Shown here piece by piece: positions 20,033 to 29,008 of a stretch of DNA of 32,119 nt. The stretch covers positions 1-32,119 of the forward strand of contig JAAZEB010000152.1 in assembly GCA_012512505.1 (NCBI GenBank), given 5' to 3'. Both the position numbers and the translations under genes were made by a program. The notes beneath the pieces were generated by a model. The model worked only from the letters and a program-made list of their open reading frames with translations. It made no database searches and was not told the origin of the DNA. Positions within the stretch are counted from its first letter, which is position 1, and each line of letters begins with the position of its first letter. Origin of the DNA: Armatimonadota bacterium (GTDB lineage: Bacteria > Armatimonadota > JAAZEB01).

Positions 20033-20176
20033 CAGGAAAGATGGCCGGAGTACCCGAGCCATCGGGCTTCAGGGTTTGGGATGCCGCATTGCTGCGGCGC
20101 TCCGTCGCTCTCCCAGGCAACTGGCCGGAGTGCCCGAGCCATCGGGCCTCTTCGGGCTGGCCGCATTGCCACGGCC
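20033..20176 (+). repeat. Class B repeat cluster 1
   Basis: Two partial units downstream of the WbsX-LamG gene. Each has CTGGCCGGAGT or a variant, the hairpin CCCGAGCCATCGGG (20053-20066 and 20133-20146), and a GCCGCATTGCTGCGGC hairpin (20083-20098) that is degenerate in the second unit. The order is the same as in cluster 3 (28780-28985) and inverted relative to cluster 2 (25240-25364). With 19925-20032 (nothing recognised) it makes up the first part of the 613-base gap before the pilin gene. Confidence 0.85.
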
Positions 20177-20294: not shown

Positions 20295-20366
20295 GGAGCC
20301 GGCTTGCCCCTTGGGTCTGCGTCGCCCCGTGCGCGGCGACCGTTCGTAACAACATGCATTAGGAAC

Positions 20367-20411
20367 TTCTAATGAGACTCTAATCTGCTTTTAATCTTCG
20401 CACGCTATAAT
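20367..20411 (+). promoter_or_regulatory. Promoter with three 11-bp direct repeats (PhoB-box-like) and perfect -10
   Basis: TTCTAAT (20367-20373), CTCTAAT (20378-20384) and TTTTAAT (20389-20395) are direct repeats with consensus YTYTAAT, each separated by four bases and so exactly 11 bases apart. A perfect TATAAT follows at 20406-20411, ten bases after the last repeat, and no -35 hexamer is evident. This is the geometry of a PhoB/OmpR-family box replacing the -35 element. The stretch is conspicuously AT-rich against its surroundings. The predicted leader to the pilin-like gene is about 120 bases. Confidence 0.65.
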
Positions 20412-20537
20412 GGGGTGTAGGAATCGGGGGGCGCGCCACGCGCCCGCGGTGGGCACCCGCCTTGGGGCGATGCCCACGGTTGTTCACACCGGCTTCCATG
20501 CTGCCGCAAATCAAGGCAGGCAGGGAGGAGGAGCAAG

Positions 20538-21419: not shown

Positions 21420-21721
21420 TGGCAGGCGGCGACGAGCTGCCGCCCTGTCTGCCCCGGCAACGGTACGTACGGTGCGGCACAGCGCGCGGGGATGCCGGCC
21501 TCTTCTGCCCTGGCGCTGTGCCGCGCTCTGTCCGCCCGAAGGCTTCACCGCCATCCGTACTGTCCTGAGCACTGAGCGCTGCTGCCGGGCGCACTCAGGA
21601 TGGCTCCCTCAACCCCCTGCCCCGCCCGTCCACTGGAACGCGACCGCGCGCCGCGCTGTCCTGTGTAGGGGTGACAGCGAATCGCGCCCCTACTCCGGGA
21701 GCGGCGAACCGAAAGGCATTG
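21420..21721 (+). promoter_or_regulatory. About 300-base structured leader of the hdr/flx operon
   Basis: No credible gene is seen. Inverted repeats include a perfect GCGGCACAGCGC/GCGCTGTGCCGC pair (21474-21485 with 21513-21524), a G/C-rich stem near 21421-21453, and GTAGGGG/CCCCTAC (21665-21671 with 21687-21693) just before the hdrC ribosome-binding site. The last resembles intergenic palindromes of the TAGGGGCGCGATT type seen in other bacteria. I do not recognise a known riboswitch class; it may be a regulatory leader or accumulated repeats. Confidence 0.4.
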
Positions 21722-22345
21722 ATGAAGCTCGGAAGTGTTGCGAGGGAAAAGACCCGCTCGGGGTTCCTGGCGGAAGTGCGCCGGCGCAGCGGCACGAACC
21801 CGGCCGATTGCTACCAGTGCGGCAAATGTACCGCCGGCTGCCCCCTCACCTTTGCCGGCGACCTGGACCCGGCGCGGGTGATGCGGCTGGTGCAGCTTGG
21901 GCAGCGCGATGCCGTGCTGCAGAGCCGCACCATCTGGCTGTGCGCCTCCTGCGAGACGTGTACCACGCGCTGCCCTCAAGAGGTGGATCTGGCGAGCGTG
22001 ATGGACGCCCTGCGCATCATGGCGCGCGAGGCCGGCCTCACCCAGGCGGCGCGCGAGGTTGCCATCGCCAATGCCGGGCTGCTCGGCAGCGTTAAGAGCC
22101 GCGGCCGCGTTCACGAGATGATGCTGGTGCTGCAGCAAAACCTGCGGACGCTGCACCTCTTCCGCGATGCCGAGAAGGGTCCCGTCCTGATGCTGAAGGG
22201 CAAGATGGATCCCCTGGGCCACAAGCGCGGCGCCCGCGACCAGGTGCGCCGCCTCTTCGAGAACGTGGCCCGGATGGAGGCGGCGGAGCGCGCCGCGTCG
22301 ACCACCCCGCGGTGCGCGTGCAGCGATGAAGGAGGGGAAGCGTGA
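21722..22345 (+). CDS. hdrC: Heterodisulfide-reductase subunit C-like iron-sulfur protein
   Basis: A 207-residue HdrC-like protein carrying two [4Fe-4S] motifs. These are Cys30-Cys33-Cys36-Cys40 (DCYQCGKCTAGCPL) and Cys74-Cys77-Cys80-Cys84 (WLCASCETCTTRCPQ). HdrC passes electrons from HdrA to the catalytic HdrB. AAAGG a few bases upstream fixes the ATG at 21722; an in-frame ATG at 21671 lies within the leader hairpin and lacks homology. The stop overlaps the GTG start of hdrB by four bases (GTGA), so the two are translationally coupled. The C-terminal tail after residue 180 is charged and ends in a Cys-rich RCACSDEGG. The position as first gene of a seven-gene locus identifies it as part of an Hdr/Flx complex. 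Confidence 0.92.
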   Translation: MKLGSVAREKTRSGFLAEVRRRSGTNPADCYQCGKCTAGCPLTFAGDLDPARVMRLVQLGQRDAVLQSRTIWLCASCETCTTRCPQEVDLASVMDALRIMAREAGLTQAAREVAIANAGLLGSVKSRGRVHEMMLVLQQNLRTLHLFRDAEKGPVLMLKGKMDPLGHKRGARDQVRRLFENVARMEAAERAASTTPRCACSDEGGEA

Positions 22346-23208
22346 GCTACGCCTACTTTCCAGGATGCTCGCAGCAAGGGATGGCGGCGGAGTTCGACCG
22401 CTCTGCCCGGAGCGTGTGCGACCGCCTGGGCATCGCGCTGAGCGAGATCCCGGACTGGGTGTGCTGCGGCGCCACGCCGGCGCACGCCACCAGCCACCTC
22501 CTCTCCATCGCCTTGCCCGCGCTGACGCTGGCGAAGGTGAAGGATGCCGACGCCGTGGCGACCGTCTGCGCCGCCTGCTACAGCCGCCTGCGCATCGCCA
22601 GCCATGAGCTGCGCGAGGACGCGGAGCTGCGCGCCCGGGTGAAGGAGGCGGCCGGCGTGGAGTGTGCCGGTGAGGTGCCGGTGCGCCACCTGCTCGATAT
22701 TCTGTGCAACGACCTGGGCGTGGCGGCGATCCGCGAGCGGGTGAAGCGCCCGCTGGCCGGTCTGAAAGTGGCCTGCTACTACGGCTGCCTGCTGATGCGC
22801 CCGCCGAAGGTGGTGGCGTTCGACGATCCCGAGAACCCGCGGGTGATGGACGAGGTCCTCGCCGCGGCGGGTGCCGAGTGCGTGGAGTGGCCCTACAAGA
22901 CGGAGTGCTGCGGGGCCAGCCTCAGCCTGGCGCGGCCAGACGTGGTGTGCAAGCTGGCCAACGACATCCTGCGCGAGGCGCGCGATGCCGGGGCGCACGT
23001 GATCGCCGTGGCCTGCCCGCTCTGCCACACCAACCTGGACCTGCGCCAGGCGGACGTTGCCCGGCAGTATGGGGTGCGCTACGAGATGCCGGTGCTTTTC
23101 TTCACTCAACTCCTCGGGCTGGCGCTGGGCGTGCCGGAAAAGGGCCTCGGCCTGAACCGGCTGATCGTGAGTCCCAAGCCGGTGCTGGAGAAGCTGGCGG
23201 CCGCGTGA
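22342..23208 (+). CDS. hdrB: Heterodisulfide-reductase subunit B-like protein with two CCG domains
   Basis: A 288-residue HdrB-like protein, the expected disulfide-reducing subunit. Both CCG domains are complete. The first is Cys9, Cys41-Cys42, Cys76, Cys79 (YFPGCS; WVCCGATP; VCAACY). The second is Cys149, Cys189-Cys190, Cys225, Cys228 (YYGCLLMRPP; ECCGASLS; ACPLCHTNLD). In the methanogen enzyme such motifs bind two noncubane [4Fe-4S] clusters that cleave a heterodisulfide. In bacteria lacking coenzymes M and B the substrate is another disulfide or unknown thiol, with DsrC proposed in sulfate reducers. GGAGG six bases before GTG supports the start. The full cysteine set argues for an active enzyme rather than a degenerate homologue. 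Confidence 0.93.
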   Translation: MSYAYFPGCSQQGMAAEFDRSARSVCDRLGIALSEIPDWVCCGATPAHATSHLLSIALPALTLAKVKDADAVATVCAACYSRLRIASHELREDAELRARVKEAAGVECAGEVPVRHLLDILCNDLGVAAIRERVKRPLAGLKVACYYGCLLMRPPKVVAFDDPENPRVMDEVLAAAGAECVEWPYKTECCGASLSLARPDVVCKLANDILREARDAGAHVIAVACPLCHTNLDLRQADVARQYGVRYEMPVLFFTQLLGLALGVPEKGLGLNRLIVSPKPVLEKLAAA

Positions 23209-23222
23209 GAGGGTGCTGATCG

Positions 23223-25214
23223 ATGGCTCGTGTTGGGGTCTTCATCTGCCATTGCGGGGAGAACATCGCGCGCACGGTGGATTGCGCGCGGGTGGCCGAG
23301 TATGCCGCCACCCTCCCCGGCGTGGCGCACGCGGTGGACTACCGCTACATGTGCTCCGATCCGGGGCAGCGCCTGATCGAGACGGCGATCCGCGAGCACG
23401 GACTCACCGGCGTCGTCGTGGCGTCGTGCAGCCCCCACATGCACGAGGTGACCTTCCGCCGCACCGTGGCGCGTGCTGGCCTCAACCCGTTCCTCTGCGA
23501 GATGGCCAACATTCGCGAGCAGTGCTCCTGGGTGCATGAGGATCGCGAAGCCGCCACCGCGAAGGCCTGCGAGCTGGTGCGCCTGATGGTGGAGAAGGTG
23601 AAGTGGAACACGGCACTCGAGCCGATCCACGTGCCGGTCACCCGCAAGGCGCTGGTAATCGGCGGGGGCATCGCCGGCATCCAGGCCGCGCTGGATATCG
23701 CCAACGGCGGCCGCGAGGTGATCCTAGTCGAGAAAGGCCCCTCCATCGGCGGGCACATGGCGCAGCTCTCGGAGACCTTCCCCACCCTCGACTGCTCGCA
23801 GTGCATCATGACGCCGCGCATGGTGGAGGTGAAAAACCACCCGAACATCACCCTCTACACCTACGCCGAGGTGGAGAAGGTAGACGGCTACATCGGCAAC
23901 TTCGCGGTGACCATCCGCAAGAAGGCGCGCTGTGTCGACGAGGCGCTGTGCACCGGCTGCGGCGAGTGCCAGAGCAAGTGCCCCCAGGGCAAGCTGAAAA
24001 CGTCGGTGATCCCCAACGAGTTCGACCTGGGCCTCAGCCGGCGGCCGGCCATCTACGTGCCGTTCCCCCAGGCGGTGCCGAACGTGCCGGTCATCGACAA
24101 GGAGCACTGCCGCTACTTCCAGGATGGCAAGTGCGGCGTCTGCCAGAAGGTGTGCCCGGCCAAGGCGGTCGATTTCACGCAGACAGACCAGGTCGTCACC
24201 GAGCAGGTGGGCGCGATTGTGGTCGCCACCGGCTACGACGTGATGTCGTCGGGCGAGTATGGCGAGTATGGCGGCGGGCGCTACCCGGACGTGATCGACG
24301 GCCTGCAGTTCGAGCGGCTGCTGAGTGCCTCCGGGCCGACCGGCGGCGAGGTGAAGCGGCCGTCGGACGGCAAGGTGCCGGAAACGGTGGTCTTCATTGC
24401 CTGTGCCGGCTCGCGGGATCGCTCGCACGGGGTGCCTTACTGCTCGAAGATCTGCTGCATGTATACGGCTAAGCACGCGATGCTCTACAAGCACAAGGTG
24501 CATCACGGGCAGGCCTACGTCTTCTACATGGACATTCGCGCCGGCGGCAAGAATTACGACGAGTTTGTGCGCCGCGCCATCGAGGAGGAGGGCGCCGTCT
24601 ACCTGCGCGGCCGCGTCTCGCGCCTCTATCAGAAGGACGGGCAGCTCATCGTCAAGGGCGCCGACACCCTCAGCGGCCAACCGGTGGAGATCGCGGCCGA
24701 CCTGGTGGTGCTGGCGACGGCGATCCAGGCGCGGCCGGGGTCGGACGCGCTGGCGCAGATGCTGAAGGTCCCTTACGACGGCTACGGCTTCCTGAGCGAG
24801 GCGCACCCGAAGCTGCGGCCGGTGGAGACGAACAGCGCCGGCGTCTACCTGGCGGGCGCTTGCCAGGCGCCGAAGGATATCCCCGAGACGGTGGCGCAGG
24901 CGAGCGCCGCGGCCAGCAAGGTGCTCGGCCTCTTCTCCATGGAGCAGATGGAGCGCGAGCCGACCGTCTCGGTGGTAAACGAGCGCACCTGCATCGGCTG
25001 CTTCGACTGCGAGCGCGTCTGCCCCTTCGGCGCCATCGAGCATCGGGAGATCCGCGACCGCCGGGGCAACCTGCTGAAGGTCGTCTCTCACGTGAACGAG
25101 GGGGTCTGCGCCGGGTGTGGCGCCTGCGCCACCACCTGCCGCAGCGGCAGCATCGAACTGCGCGGCTACACCGACGAGCAGGTTTTCGCCCAGATCGCCG
25201 CCGTGGGGGTATAG
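23223..25214 (+). CDS. hdrA: Heterodisulfide-reductase subunit A-like flavoprotein
   Basis: A 663-residue HdrA of usual length, the flavoprotein at which electron bifurcation is thought to occur. The N-terminal domain has FICHCGENIA plus Cys44, Cys69, Cys92 and Cys101. The FAD site is VIGGGIAGIQAALDIANGG (147-163), followed by EKGPSIGGHMAQL and the Cys191/Cys194 pair in DCSQCIMTPRM. An inserted ferredoxin region holds Cys243-246-249-253 and Cys296-304-307-311. A C-terminal ferredoxin domain holds Cys590-593-596-600 and Cys629-632-635-639. All are typical of HdrA. It starts 14 bases after hdrB. A class B repeat cluster and a HEAT-repeat remnant separate it from the Flx-like genes, but orientation and content indicate one operon. 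In FlxABCD-HdrABC, NADH electrons are thought to be split between ferredoxin and the HdrB substrate. Confidence 0.94.
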   Translation: MARVGVFICHCGENIARTVDCARVAEYAATLPGVAHAVDYRYMCSDPGQRLIETAIREHGLTGVVVASCSPHMHEVTFRRTVARAGLNPFLCEMANIREQCSWVHEDREAATAKACELVRLMVEKVKWNTALEPIHVPVTRKALVIGGGIAGIQAALDIANGGREVILVEKGPSIGGHMAQLSETFPTLDCSQCIMTPRMVEVKNHPNITLYTYAEVEKVDGYIGNFAVTIRKKARCVDEALCTGCGECQSKCPQGKLKTSVIPNEFDLGLSRRPAIYVPFPQAVPNVPVIDKEHCRYFQDGKCGVCQKVCPAKAVDFTQTDQVVTEQVGAIVVATGYDVMSSGEYGEYGGGRYPDVIDGLQFERLLSASGPTGGEVKRPSDGKVPETVVFIACAGSRDRSHGVPYCSKICCMYTAKHAMLYKHKVHHGQAYVFYMDIRAGGKNYDEFVRRAIEEEGAVYLRGRVSRLYQKDGQLIVKGADTLSGQPVEIAADLVVLATAIQARPGSDALAQMLKVPYDGYGFLSEAHPKLRPVETNSAGVYLAGACQAPKDIPETVAQASAAASKVLGLFSMEQMEREPTVSVVNERTCIGCFDCERVCPFGAIEHREIRDRRGNLLKVVSHVNEGVCAGCGACATTCRSGSIELRGYTDEQVFAQIAAVGV

Positions 25215-25239
25215 CGGGCGACCAGCGCCCGCGGCGAAG

Positions 25240-25364
25240 AGGCCCGATGGCTCGGGCACTCCGGCCAGTTGCCTGGGAGAGTAACGGAGTGCCGCAGCAA
25301 TGCGGCTTCCCACAGTGCGAAGCCTGATGGCTCGGGCGCTCCGGCCAGTTGCCTGGGAGAGCAC
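25240..25364 (-). repeat. Class B repeat cluster 2, inside the hdr/flx operon
   Basis: Two units in reverse orientation relative to clusters 1 and 3. Each contains CCCGATGGCTCGGG or a close variant, followed by ACTCCGGCCAGTTGCC or GCTCCGGCCAGTTGCC. Between the units is a GCCGCAGCAATGCGGC hairpin (25291-25306). The cluster lies between the hdrA stop and the HEAT-repeat remnant and ends abruptly at the remnant's first recognisable codon. Confidence 0.88.
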
Positions 25365-25508
25365 CGGACCCTCGTCAGGGCACTGGAGTACTCCGGCACA
25401 CCGGAAGCGATCCCGGTGCCGGCACCGCTCCTGAAGCACGCAGAGCCGGCGGTTCGCTACAATGCGCGAGTGGCCGTAAAAGCGCTTGGCAAGCAGATAG
25501 ACACATGA
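25365..25508 (+). pseudogene. C-terminal remnant of a HEAT-repeat protein
   Basis: About 47 codons read RTLVRALEYSGTPEAI, then PVPAPLLKHAEPAVRYNARV and AVKALGKQIDT. This follows the HEAT/PBS-lyase repeat pattern (aLeyLgdpeAip.L...L.h.epaVR..Aa.ALg). The frame stays open upstream but there it only translates class B repeat DNA, and no start codon with a ribosome-binding site is present at the junction. The stop TGA overlaps the next gene's start as ATGA (25505-25508), an arrangement typical of two translated, coupled genes. The simplest reading is that a HEAT-repeat gene once stood here and lost its 5' part where the repeats now lie. A short functional protein started from a non-ATG codon cannot be excluded. 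Confidence 0.55.
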
Positions 25509-26848
25509 TGAGCGATACCTTTGAGCCGAAGATTGTGGCGTTTGTGTGCAACTGGTGTACCTACACCGGGGCCGACCTGGCGGGCACCAGCCGGATGCAG
25601 TACCCGGCCAACGTGCGCATCATCAAGCTGCCCTGCACCGGGCGGATCAGCCCGCTCTTCATCATGAAGGCGCTGGAGCAGGGTGCTGACGGTGTGCTCG
25701 TCTCCGGCTGCCATCCGGGCGACTGCCACTACACCGCCGGCAACTACCACGCGCGCCGCAAGTACACCATCTTCCGCGAGATGCTTCACTTCCTGGGCGT
25801 TGAGCCGGAGCGCCTCTTCTTCTCCTGGGTCTCCGCCGCCGAGGGGCGCAAGTGGGCCGATCTGGTCGCCGAGGTCACCGACACGGTGCGCCGCCTGGGC
25901 CCCCGCCGCAGCGCCTGGGGTGAGCCGGTAGAGGGCATTGCCGCACCACGTCTGTCGGCCAACCCGGTCCCCTTCGAAGCGCCGGCCGGCACGTTCGCGG
26001 CCCAGGCCGAGGCGATGCGGGAGAAGGCCAAAGCACTCCTGGCCGGCGGCGAAGTGGGCACGGTGATCGGCTACGAGCAGGGCACGCTGCCGGGCACGGC
26101 GCGGCCGGCGTTCGTCTCCACGCCCGAGGAGGTCGACCGGCTGGTCTGGAACGAGCACTGCCACCAGAACCTGGCGGTCTACGCGGCCCGCAAGCCGGCC
26201 AAGCCGGGCAAGGTGGCCCTGGTGGTGAAGCCGTGCGACGAGCGGAGTCTCGTCGGGCTGCTTCAGGAGAACCGCCTCGCTCGTGAGGACGTGGTGCTGA
26301 TCGGGATGGCCTGCCACGGGGTACAGAGCGAGGGTGCCCTCGCGCCCCGGTGCGCCGCCTGCCAGACGCGCACGCCAGCGCTCGCCGACCCGGTGATTGG
26401 GGAGGCGACGCCGCCCACCGCCACGGCCGACCCAAGGCTGGAGCAGATTGCGCGCATCGAGCAGATGGCGCCGGCGGAGCGCTGGAACTTCTGGCAGGGG
26501 CACTTCTCGCGCTGCCTGAAGTGCTACGCCTGCCGCGCAGCCTGCTCGCTTTGCACCTGCGAGCGCTGCCTGGCGGAGAAGGCGCAGCCGCGCTGGATCC
26601 CGGCGCCGCCGGACGGGGCGGGCAACCTCTCGTGGCACGCGGTGCGCGCCTGGCACCTCGCCGGCCGCTGTGTCGACTGCGGCGCCTGCTCGGCGGCGTG
26701 CCCGGCCGACATCCCGCTCTACCTGCTCAACCTGAAGCTGGCGCAGGTGGTGAAGGACGCCTTTGACTACGAAGCCGGGCGCGACCCGGCGGCGGCGCCC
26801 CCCCTCACCACCTACCGCGAGGACGATGCACAGGAGTTCATCCGCTGA
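25505..26848 (+). CDS. FlxD-FlxC-like fusion: MvhD-type delta subunit plus 4Fe-4S protein
   Basis: A 447-residue fusion. Residues 8-140 are an MvhD/FlxD domain with Cys15-Cys18, Cys44, Cys69 and Cys74 (FVCNWCTYTGADLAG; LPCTGRISP; SGCHPGDCHYTAGN), which holds a [2Fe-2S] cluster and docks on HdrA. Residues 175-320 (KPCDERSLVGLLQE, GMACHGV) resemble FrhB-like/FlxC proteins. Residues 337-355 contain a dense CLKCYACRAACSLCTCERC motif, and 389-399 (CVDCGACSAAC) a second ferredoxin-type cluster. FlxC and FlxD are described as separate proteins in Desulfovibrio-type loci; here they form one chain. No clear ribosome-binding site precedes the ATG, consistent with coupling to the overlapping HEAT-like frame. 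The protein should link the NAD(P)H-oxidising module to HdrA. Confidence 0.85.
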   Translation: MMSDTFEPKIVAFVCNWCTYTGADLAGTSRMQYPANVRIIKLPCTGRISPLFIMKALEQGADGVLVSGCHPGDCHYTAGNYHARRKYTIFREMLHFLGVEPERLFFSWVSAAEGRKWADLVAEVTDTVRRLGPRRSAWGEPVEGIAAPRLSANPVPFEAPAGTFAAQAEAMREKAKALLAGGEVGTVIGYEQGTLPGTARPAFVSTPEEVDRLVWNEHCHQNLAVYAARKPAKPGKVALVVKPCDERSLVGLLQENRLAREDVVLIGMACHGVQSEGALAPRCAACQTRTPALADPVIGEATPPTATADPRLEQIARIEQMAPAERWNFWQGHFSRCLKCYACRAACSLCTCERCLAEKAQPRWIPAPPDGAGNLSWHAVRAWHLAGRCVDCGACSAACPADIPLYLLNLKLAQVVKDAFDYEAGRDPAAAPPLTTYREDDAQEFIR

Positions 26849-27888
26849 TGGCCAAGGCACTGCGAACCGAAGCGCTTCTCGATTTCCTACGGGCGGTCCA
26901 GCAAGACGCCCGACGCCTCGTTGCTCCGGTGGAGGAGGATGGGCTGCGCCTCTTCCGCGCGGTAGACCGCGTCGAGGAGATCACCCTGGCCGAGGGGAAC
27001 ACCCGCTGGTCGTTCAAGGAGGTCCTTTTCCCGCGGTCGGAGGCGCTCTTCCACTACCGGCTCTCAGGCGGGTCGGTGGCGCTTCAGGAGCCGGACCAGC
27101 CGGAGGGCGAGACGGTCGTCTTCGGCGCCCGCCCGTGTGATGCCGCCGGCCTCGCCGTGCTAGACGCCGTCTTCGCCCCTAACGGACGCCCGGATCCCGA
27201 CCAGGCGCCGGAGCACGAGGACCCGTTCTACCGCCGCCGCCGCGCCCAGACCACGATCATCGGCCTCGCCTGCCTTGAACCAGGGCCGGCCTGCTTCTGC
27301 ACCGCCGTCGGCCTCTCTCCCACCGGCACCGCCGGCAGTGATCTGCTGCTGACGCCGCTGCCGGACCAGGGGGTGTTCCTGGCCGAGGCGGTCACCGAGA
27401 AGGGCGAGCGCCTCCTCGCGGCCCACGCGCACCTCTTTACGGATACAGACGACACGAAGGAGCAGGCAACACGGGCCGCCGAAGGGCGCATCCAGCGGAC
27501 GGCCCTCTCGGGAGTGGGGGGGCCACTCGCCACCCTTTTCGAGGCGCCGCCGTGGGAGGAGCTGGCGGCGAGGTGCCTTGGCTGCGGGGCGTGCGCCTTC
27601 GTCTGTCCCACCTGCCACTGCTTCGACATCGTGGACGAGGGGAACGCCGCCGGGGGCAGCCGCTGCAAGTTCTGGGATTCGTGCGGGTTTGCGCTGTTCA
27701 CGGCGCATACCTCGGGGCACAACCCCCGCGCCACCCAGCCGGCGCGCTTCCGCCAGCGGGTGCTCCACAAGTTCCGCTATCTGCCGGAGCGCTTCGGCGT
27801 GCAGGGGTGTGTCGGCTGCGGGCGCTGCATCGCCACCTGCCCGGTGAACATGGACATCCAAGAGGTGGTGGCGAAGGTGACCGGGTGA
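26848..27888 (+). CDS. FlxB/HyhB/AsrA-like 4Fe-4S electron-transfer protein
   Basis: A 346-residue iron-sulfur protein of the family that includes sulfhydrogenase beta subunits, AsrA of anaerobic sulfite reductase and FlxB. The start overlaps the previous stop as TGATG. Residues 90-150 carry GARPCDAAGLAVLDAVF and GLACLEPGPACFC, both usual in the family. Clusters are bound by Cys243-246-249-253, with Cys256 and Cys258 (CLGCGACAFVCPTCHC), and by Cys321-324-327-331 (CVGCGRCIATCPVNMDI). KFWDSCGFALFTAHTSGHNP lies between them as in AsrA/HyhB. The role is electron transfer between the FlxA-like flavoprotein and the FlxDC fusion. The next gene starts 45 bases after the stop. Confidence 0.88.
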   Translation: MAKALRTEALLDFLRAVQQDARRLVAPVEEDGLRLFRAVDRVEEITLAEGNTRWSFKEVLFPRSEALFHYRLSGGSVALQEPDQPEGETVVFGARPCDAAGLAVLDAVFAPNGRPDPDQAPEHEDPFYRRRRAQTTIIGLACLEPGPACFCTAVGLSPTGTAGSDLLLTPLPDQGVFLAEAVTEKGERLLAAHAHLFTDTDDTKEQATRAAEGRIQRTALSGVGGPLATLFEAPPWEELAARCLGCGACAFVCPTCHCFDIVDEGNAAGGSRCKFWDSCGFALFTAHTSGHNPRATQPARFRQRVLHKFRYLPERFGVQGCVGCGRCIATCPVNMDIQEVVAKVTG

Positions 27889-27933
27889 CAGGCCCCGGGG
27901 TCTGCTCTCCCGCTACTCTGACCTGAGAGTGCT

Positions 27934-28773
27934 ATGGCAAACGTATATCTGCCTTACTTGATGACCGTGGCCGCGGTGCGTGACGAGACGCCGGACGTGC
28001 GGACGCTGCGCCTGGAGTTCCAGGACGAGAGCATCCGCGAGGGGTTCCGCTTCCGGGCGGGGCAGTTTGGGCTCTACTCGGTGTTTGGCCAGGGAGAGTG
28101 CGTCTTCTGCATCGCCAGCCCAGACACGCGCCCCGGGGCCATCGAGTGCAGCTTCAGCTACCGCTGGGGCGGCAAGGTCACCAGCGCCCTCTCGCGGCTC
28201 ACCGTGGGCGACACGATGGGTTTCCGCGGGCCCTATGGCAACTGGTTCCCGCTGGACGCGATGCGGGGCAAGAACCTGGTCTTCATCGGTGGCGGCATCG
28301 GCATGGCCCCCATCCGCTCCATCTTCGAGACGGCGCTAGACCAGCGGGCGGAGTTCGGCGACATCCTCCTGCTCAACGGCGCCCGCAGCGTCTCCGACCT
28401 GGTCTACAAGGCCGAAACCGAGGCTTGGATCGCCCGCGACGACATCACCTGCGTGAAGACGGTGGACCCGGGCGGCGAGACGCCGGAGTGGGATGGCAAG
28501 GTGGGGCTCATCCCCAAAGTGCTGGAAGAGTTGGCCCCCAGCGCCACCAACGCGCTGGCGCTGGTGTGCGGCCCGCCGATCATGATCAAGTTCGCCCTGG
28601 AGTCGCTGGCGAAGCTTGGGTTCGGCAAAGAGCAGATCTACACCACCCTGGAGAACCGGATGAAGTGCGGCAGCGGGCAGTGCGGGCGCGGCAACATCGG
28701 CGGCTGCTACGTCTGCAAAGACGGCCCTGTCTTCAGCGCCGCCGAGCTAGAGCAGCTCCCGCCGGAGTTTTAG
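27934..28773 (+). CDS. FlxA-like FAD/NAD(P)H oxidoreductase subunit
   Basis: A 279-residue ferredoxin-reductase-fold protein of the sulfhydrogenase-gamma/AsrB/FlxA group, the predicted NAD(P)H entry point. FAD binding is shown by FRFRAGQFGLYSVFGQGE (38-55). The nucleotide-binding glycines are in FIGGGIGMAPIRSIFETAL (117-135), and VCGPPIMIKF is the usual C-terminal strand. The C-terminal cluster region should read C-x4-C-x2-C-x-n-C. It shows Cys245, Cys250, then Gly253 where Cys is expected, a non-canonical Cys258, and Cys261 (MKCGSGQCGRGNIGGCYVCK). It is the last gene of the operon. A weak purine-rich site (GAGAG) precedes the ATG. Class B cluster 3 follows six bases after the stop. Confidence 0.9.
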   Translation: MANVYLPYLMTVAAVRDETPDVRTLRLEFQDESIREGFRFRAGQFGLYSVFGQGECVFCIASPDTRPGAIECSFSYRWGGKVTSALSRLTVGDTMGFRGPYGNWFPLDAMRGKNLVFIGGGIGMAPIRSIFETALDQRAEFGDILLLNGARSVSDLVYKAETEAWIARDDITCVKTVDPGGETPEWDGKVGLIPKVLEELAPSATNALALVCGPPIMIKFALESLAKLGFGKEQIYTTLENRMKCGSGQCGRGNIGGCYVCKDGPVFSAAELEQLPPEF

Positions 28774-28779
28774 AGCCCC

Positions 28780-28985
28780 CCGGCAACTGGTCGGAGTACC
28801 CGAGCCATCGGGCTTCACACTGGAAGAAGCCGCATTGCTGCGGCACTCCGCGGCTCTCTCAGGCAACTGGCCGGAGTGCCCGAGCCGTCGGGCATCGGCA
28901 GTCTCCGCGGCTCTCTCAGGCAACTGGTCGGAGTATCCGAGCCATCGGGCTTCACACTGGAAAAAGCCGCATTGCTGCGGCGCCC
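28780..28985 (+). repeat. Class B repeat cluster 3, the most complete copy
   Basis: Roughly three units of about 60-80 bases. GGCAACTGGTCGGAGT or a variant starts at 28782, 28862 and 28919. It is followed by CCCGAGCCATCGGG or a variant, then in the first and third unit by TTCACACTGG and GCCGCATTGCTGCGGC (28829-28844 and 28967-28982). Units are joined by CTCCGCGGCTCTCTCAGG. The middle unit is shortened and lacks the GCCGCA hairpin. The cluster fills most of the 299-base gap between the FlxA-like gene and the converging DUF1080 gene. Confidence 0.9.
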
Positions 28986-29008
28986 CATGGAAGGCGGGGT
29001 GCCTCCAC

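Follow-up and report, generated by a model that had tools for sequence, protein, structure and literature searches.

The segment at 20357-20411 of the window (the whole stretch of DNA analysed, 32,119 nucleotides from an Armatimonadota bacterium) is probably a class-II-type activator promoter, one of 17 places in the genome at which an OmpR-family array would switch pilin-like and a few other genes, with the response regulator encoded on contig C208 as the best candidate for the protein that acts there. Judged from sequence, identification of the segment as a response-regulator operator of the OmpR/PhoB family is well supported.

Re-reading of the array, directly and by script, bore out three heptamers with starts exactly 11 apart, ending 10 nt before a TATAAT, as first described in a sequence-only reading of this DNA (Table 1). 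The AT-rich island lacking a -35 hexamer was likewise confirmed: the hexamers 16-18 nt from the -10 are TCTGCT, ATCTGC and AATCTG, none of them -35-like, and AT content is 65% over 20355-20411 vs 31% for the window. The description as a triple direct repeat was correct for the three direct half-sites and incomplete in missing a fourth, inverted one, which reads ATTAGG at 20358-20363 in the window copy where the consensus is ATTAGA, and which together with box 1 forms the pair ATTAGA-N4-TCTAAT. The predicted operator comprises three direct half-sites and one inverted half-site in place of the -35. The spacer G two positions 5' of the -10 is found at 16 of the 17 genomic sites, as part of the TG of an extended -10 at ten of them and as CG in the window copy. 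Allowing up to three mismatches, the heptamer pattern had a single match in the window and none in 100 shuffles. An RNA element in the 5' leader was rejected, since the window, leader included, gave no Rfam match at the gathering threshold.

Table 1. Features of the predicted promoter and its target gene, in window coordinates
Feature	Sequence	Position	Strand	Remarks
Inverted half-site	CATTAGG	20357-20363	+	consensus CATTAGA, the reverse complement of TCTAAT[G]
Direct half-site 1	TTCTAAT	20367-20373	+	TCTAAT in 17/17 genome sites
Direct half-site 2	CTCTAAT	20378-20384	+	consensus TYTAAY in 17/17 genome sites
Direct half-site 3	TTTTAAT	20389-20395	+	TAAT in 17/17 genome sites
10-nt spacer	CTTCGCACGC	20396-20405	+	length 10 in 17/17 sites; conserved G at 20404
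-10 hexamer	TATAAT	20406-20411	+	TANNNT in 17/17 genome sites
Predicted 5' leader		20418-20537	+	start near 20418 inferred from the -10
Pilin-like target gene, 221 aa		20538-21203	+	prepilin N-terminal methylation motif, DUF1559 (SBP_bac_10)

The genome from which the window comes (G000; 5.66 Mb in 396 contigs, completeness 96.92) contains eight exact copies of the pattern, where about 2e-7 would be expected from base composition and the reversed control gave none. With up to three mismatches in the 18 core bases there were 19 matches, representing 17 distinct sites, since two are arrays read one repeat on; the reversed-pattern control yielded 10 matches at this threshold and none in stricter searches. 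Alignment of the 17 gave the consensus ATTARN-N4-TCTAAT-N5-TYTAAY-N5-NYTAAT-N10-TANNNT, with the N10 and TANNNT kept in every one. Four bases 5' of the first TCTAAT, the inverted half retains ATTA in all 17 sites and the full ATTAGA in 12. A search keyed on this half, ATTARNNNNNTCTAATNNNNNTYTAAY, with up to two mismatches found 19 matches (control 0), namely the same 17 at zero mismatch, one reverse or shifted re-reading, and a decayed site on contig C358, which lies 5' of another pilin gene with one mismatch and without a -10. The genome has 13 exact copies of ATTAGA-N4-TCTAAT (control 0), corresponding to the 12 full sites and the decayed one. On these sequence counts the 17 distinct sites and the decayed one make up a closed set.

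The motif is thus not confined to the window, and regulon candidates lie beside it elsewhere: by N-terminal sequence, 14 of the 17 sites precede DUF1559/prepilin-type genes, for which a simple binomial gives a chance of about 5e-38. The remaining three targets encode, on C246, a 129-aa protein that belongs to no known family; on C281, a membrane protein of 90 aa; and, on C208, a methyltransferase. The 221-aa target itself belongs with the DUF1559 prepilin-type proteins by its methylation motif and its DUF1559 match, scoring above cut-off for PF07963 (36.4 bits), PF07596 (38.2 bits) and TIGR02532 (30.7 bits), and below the cut-off of 19 for TIGR04294 (12.3 bits); its C-terminal end is a degenerate H-X9-DG. 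A pilin profile had 51 matches in the genome, some of them fragments of one gene. When upstream regions were scored over 24 half-site positions, 14 reached at least 20, one reached 19, and the remainder did not exceed 13. One signal thus probably switches on a set of scattered surface-fibre genes. Directly 3' of the pilin gene, at 21671-28773, lie genes that by eye resemble heterodisulfide-reductase-type and iron-sulfur electron-transfer subunits. Chance translations of three intergenic stretches of the window (20040-20170, 25210-25400 and 28780-28990) repeat "LSQATGRSARAIG...", and these stretches are probably a dispersed repeat family of the genome.

Binding, activation and signal, as we infer them from sequence, would begin with a kinase that phosphorylates an OmpR-family response regulator, which would then fill the cooperative array of one inverted and three direct half-sites, at 11-bp spacing, on one face of the DNA. 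If the -10 is set at -12 to -7, the three direct half-sites occupy -50 to -45, -39 to -34 and -28 to -23, with the inverted half-site at -60 to -55. The array, spanning -60 to -23, would abut the -10 and substitute for the -35, with the regulator contacting sigma and holding it at a TATAAT otherwise too weak, and the same module at 17 places would turn on scattered genes together, 14 of them pilin-like. It is quite improbable that the array is instead a repressor site or the site of an unrelated DNA-binding protein, as the inverted half-site, unusual next to direct repeats, might suggest; an activator suits better because each of the 17 arrays ends 10 nt before the -10 and a -35 is lacking, and a 7+4 period is typical of OmpR-family tandem dimers. 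That the repeats are an alternative sigma recognition sequence, or a spreading element of no regulatory role, is barely credible. The copies are indeed dispersed, and box presence does not track the pilin tree, but the -10 is TATAAT-like with a conserved G two bases 5', box, spacer and -10 are preserved in copies whose flanks and leaders differ, and 14 of 17 copies are positioned 5' of one gene family.

The activator promoter's likely regulator was sought through the genes beside the boxes, here and in related genomes. In G000 and in G203, whose regulators are 86% identical, the regulator and kinase genes come first, then the box and the methyltransferase gene; in G024 and G025 a box is followed, all on the same strand, by genes for a PepSY protein, an OmpR-family regulator and a kinase; and in G021 a box heads genes for TolC, a membrane-fusion protein (MFP), an RND pump, the regulator and the kinase. 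The G021, G024 and G025 regulators cluster with the C208 regulator and its orthologue in G203 (support 96/92 in a tree), so that the box adjoins the operon of one regulator clade in five of seven box-bearing genomes, from two families, the contigs of G022 being short. This linkage, the 11-bp period and the invariant N10 to the -10 are those of an OmpR-family operator, and the C208 response regulator likely binds the boxes; in G000 no box lies directly 5' of the regulator gene itself. The regulator is encoded with a 668-aa kinase, the periplasmic region of which gave a weak Pfam CHASE4 match (E 0.055), and a low-confidence AlphaFold model of the sensor (pLDDT 60, two sequences) resembles Cache-type sensor domains, a hint that the sensor may be of Cache type.

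Another OmpR-family regulator of G000 could bind the boxes in place of the C208 protein, since the genome has nine full OmpR-type matches to choose from, G204 (80% complete) has boxed pilins and no C208 orthologue was found in it, and two regulators adjoin unboxed pilins on contig C260. This is unlikely, as only the C208 clade adjoins boxes, in five genomes of two families, and of the nine matches only C208 has an N-V-x3-Y-x2-Y recognition helix. The C260 locus (L091:4592-10551), where two OmpR-family regulators and a kinase stand beside unboxed pilin-like genes, suggests a second pilin control circuit.

The recognition helix of the C208 regulator can be set beside that of M. tuberculosis PhoP, which is reported (PMC4832192) to recognise TCACAGC repeats separated by exactly 4 bp and to make contacts through Asn212, Val213, Glu215, Ser216, Tyr217 and Tyr220; where the repeats allow, its cooperative binding can extend to trimers and tetramers. 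The PhoP operator (TCACAGC-N4-TCACAGC, PDB 5ED4) has the same 7+4 spacing as the boxes. Alignment of NVIDVYVNY in C208 with NVVESYVSY in PhoP showed matches at Asn212, Val213, Tyr217 and Tyr220 and departures at Glu215 (Asp in C208) and Ser216 (Val in C208); the residues kept contact T4, C5 and A8 of TCACAGC, positions in common with TCTAATS. The shared helix residues may explain the box specificity of C208. Unlike the PhoP system, the half-site here is TCTAATS, C208 is not a PhoP by family score, and the organism belongs to another phylum.

A response of the pilin-like gene to phosphate, or to another two-component signal, had been proposed from the likeness of the array to the PHO box. The PHO box of E. 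coli ends ten bases from the -10, and the boxes here share this position, in the place of the -35. They agree also in repeat length and spacing, PHO-box units being 7-nt direct repeats with 4-nt spacers, 11 nt in all (PMC4415409); at least two such heptamers make a PHO box, and three occur in all 17 sites. Of the proposed PhoB/OmpR-family regulator, the OmpR/PhoB-class operator replacing the -35 is supported, and PhoB itself is not: the C208 regulator scored 192.6 bits against the PhoB model TIGR02154, for which the cut-off is 296.2, and unlike in the PhoB system the box-linked regulator is CopR-like. The boxes also differ from the E. coli PHO box (CTGTCAT) in heptamer, in the extra inverted half-site and in having no counterpart at pst, where the scan that had been suggested found no box: a PstB search led to the pst operon contig C217 and to C143 (best PstB match), and when these were read the best alignment was only 11 of 18 positions. 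No pst or pho gene is among the 17 targets. Regulators resembling PhoB do exist in the genome, for example on C260 (TIGR02154 248.0 bits, below the cut-off of 296.2), and those of C260 carry the helices RTVDVHIRW and RNVDVHIRT. That a PhoB-type phosphate regulator binds the boxes, with the pilins as part of a Pho regulon, is accordingly very improbable; the link to phosphate was rejected, and phosphate as the signal is unsupported.

The model nearest to the C208 regulator is that of CztR/SilR/CopR (TIGR01387), at 266.8 bits and below the cut-off of 279.2, as is the G025 regulator at 260.5 bits. The copper box of CusR/CopR is an inverted ATGACA-N4-TGTCAT, with which the pair ATTAGA-N4-TCTAAT agrees in geometry. 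In family f7, and only there, RND efflux operons adjoin the regulator, much as CusR is located with cusCFBA (PMC8249747). Unlike CusR/CopR, the arrays have two further direct half-sites, the targets in G000 are pilins rather than metal pumps, and the kinase sensor differs.

A scan of 291 genomes of the phylum, where the named kin are mostly Armatimonadota and Zipacnadia, with at most one mismatch found three-box sites in eight: G000, G203 and G204 of family f1, G021, G022, G024 and G025 of f7, and G237, whose match is off-pattern. Among the 15 further sites listed, N10-TANNNT is present in 11, and four in G021 and G022 have AATAAT, CATACT or AATACT there. Both G203 and G204 carry the box before a homologue of the C246 protein, and G203 also before one of the methyltransferase; the boxed pilins of G204 are spread over five contigs. 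In G203 there are 110 pilin matches and two boxes genome-wide, neither of them 5' of a pilin; all 12 pilin upstream regions examined lacked a box. G023 has no site within three mismatches, though its regulator has the same helix as C208, and in G020 (f7) the palindrome ATTAGA-N4-TCTAAT is found without mismatch 107 nt 5' of a pilin-like gene, with the regulator-kinase pair next on the contig. Among named relatives, 80 loci (454,187 bases) contained no convincing box. The palindrome ATTAGA-N4-TCTAAT alone, across the phylum, occurs outside f1 and f7 at about the frequency of the reversed control; one exact copy, from a third family (G046:C16:17659-17674, L321), is 73 nt 5' of a pilin-like gene and may be there by chance. 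In G204, about seven tandem 11-bp TCTAATGCAAT units stand 5' of a boxed pilin on C223 (L240:111-193), a possible slippage-prone operator able to vary its repeat number. In G021 and G022, pairs of boxes a few hundred bases apart (L235:4434 and 4951; L234:1527 and 2024) precede genes for a PepSY protein and a PAP2-type membrane phosphatase-like protein.

A tree of 61 pilins, for which the bootstrap had not settled, was built from 36 of 51 matches in G000, 12 of 110 in G203 and 13 of 40 in G204, leaving out proteins with fewer than 130 aa beyond the motif, those in which the search motif was missing and those not fetched; contig ends truncate the boxed pilins of G204 at C6 and C72. Boxed and unboxed proteins were mixed, with 17 label changes, at least nine of them forced by supported branches, about as many as with shuffled labels. 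A single clade of boxed pilins was thus rejected, and even close paralogues differ, as in the C236 triplet of two boxed genes and one unboxed. The mixed tree and the 110 pilin matches of G203 with no boxed pilin therefore argue that the pilin regulon is young or easily lost, and the link to the regulator operon appears older.

In summary, the target gene belongs to the DUF1559/prepilin-type proteins of Planctomycetes, Lentisphaerae and Armatimonadota, which number dozens to more than 100 copies per genome (74 paralogues in Rhodopirellula baltica; PMC2754498). No operator or regulator for the family was found in the literature searched, most subscription journals lying outside it. The operator joins inverted and tandem half-sites, and the promoter is spread over paralogues irrespective of their tree. 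A tentative picture is of a movable promoter module gained and lost before single pilin paralogues independently of their coding sequence, through which one two-component system, possibly with a Cache-type sensor, would select which among dozens of pilin-like proteins are made together; its regulator would have moved from controlling efflux and envelope functions, as in f7, to a repertoire of surface fibres in G000 and G204. A shared operator would mark a co-regulated subset of these proteins, and the candidate regulator now named gives a starting point for learning when DUF1559 proteins are made, and why.
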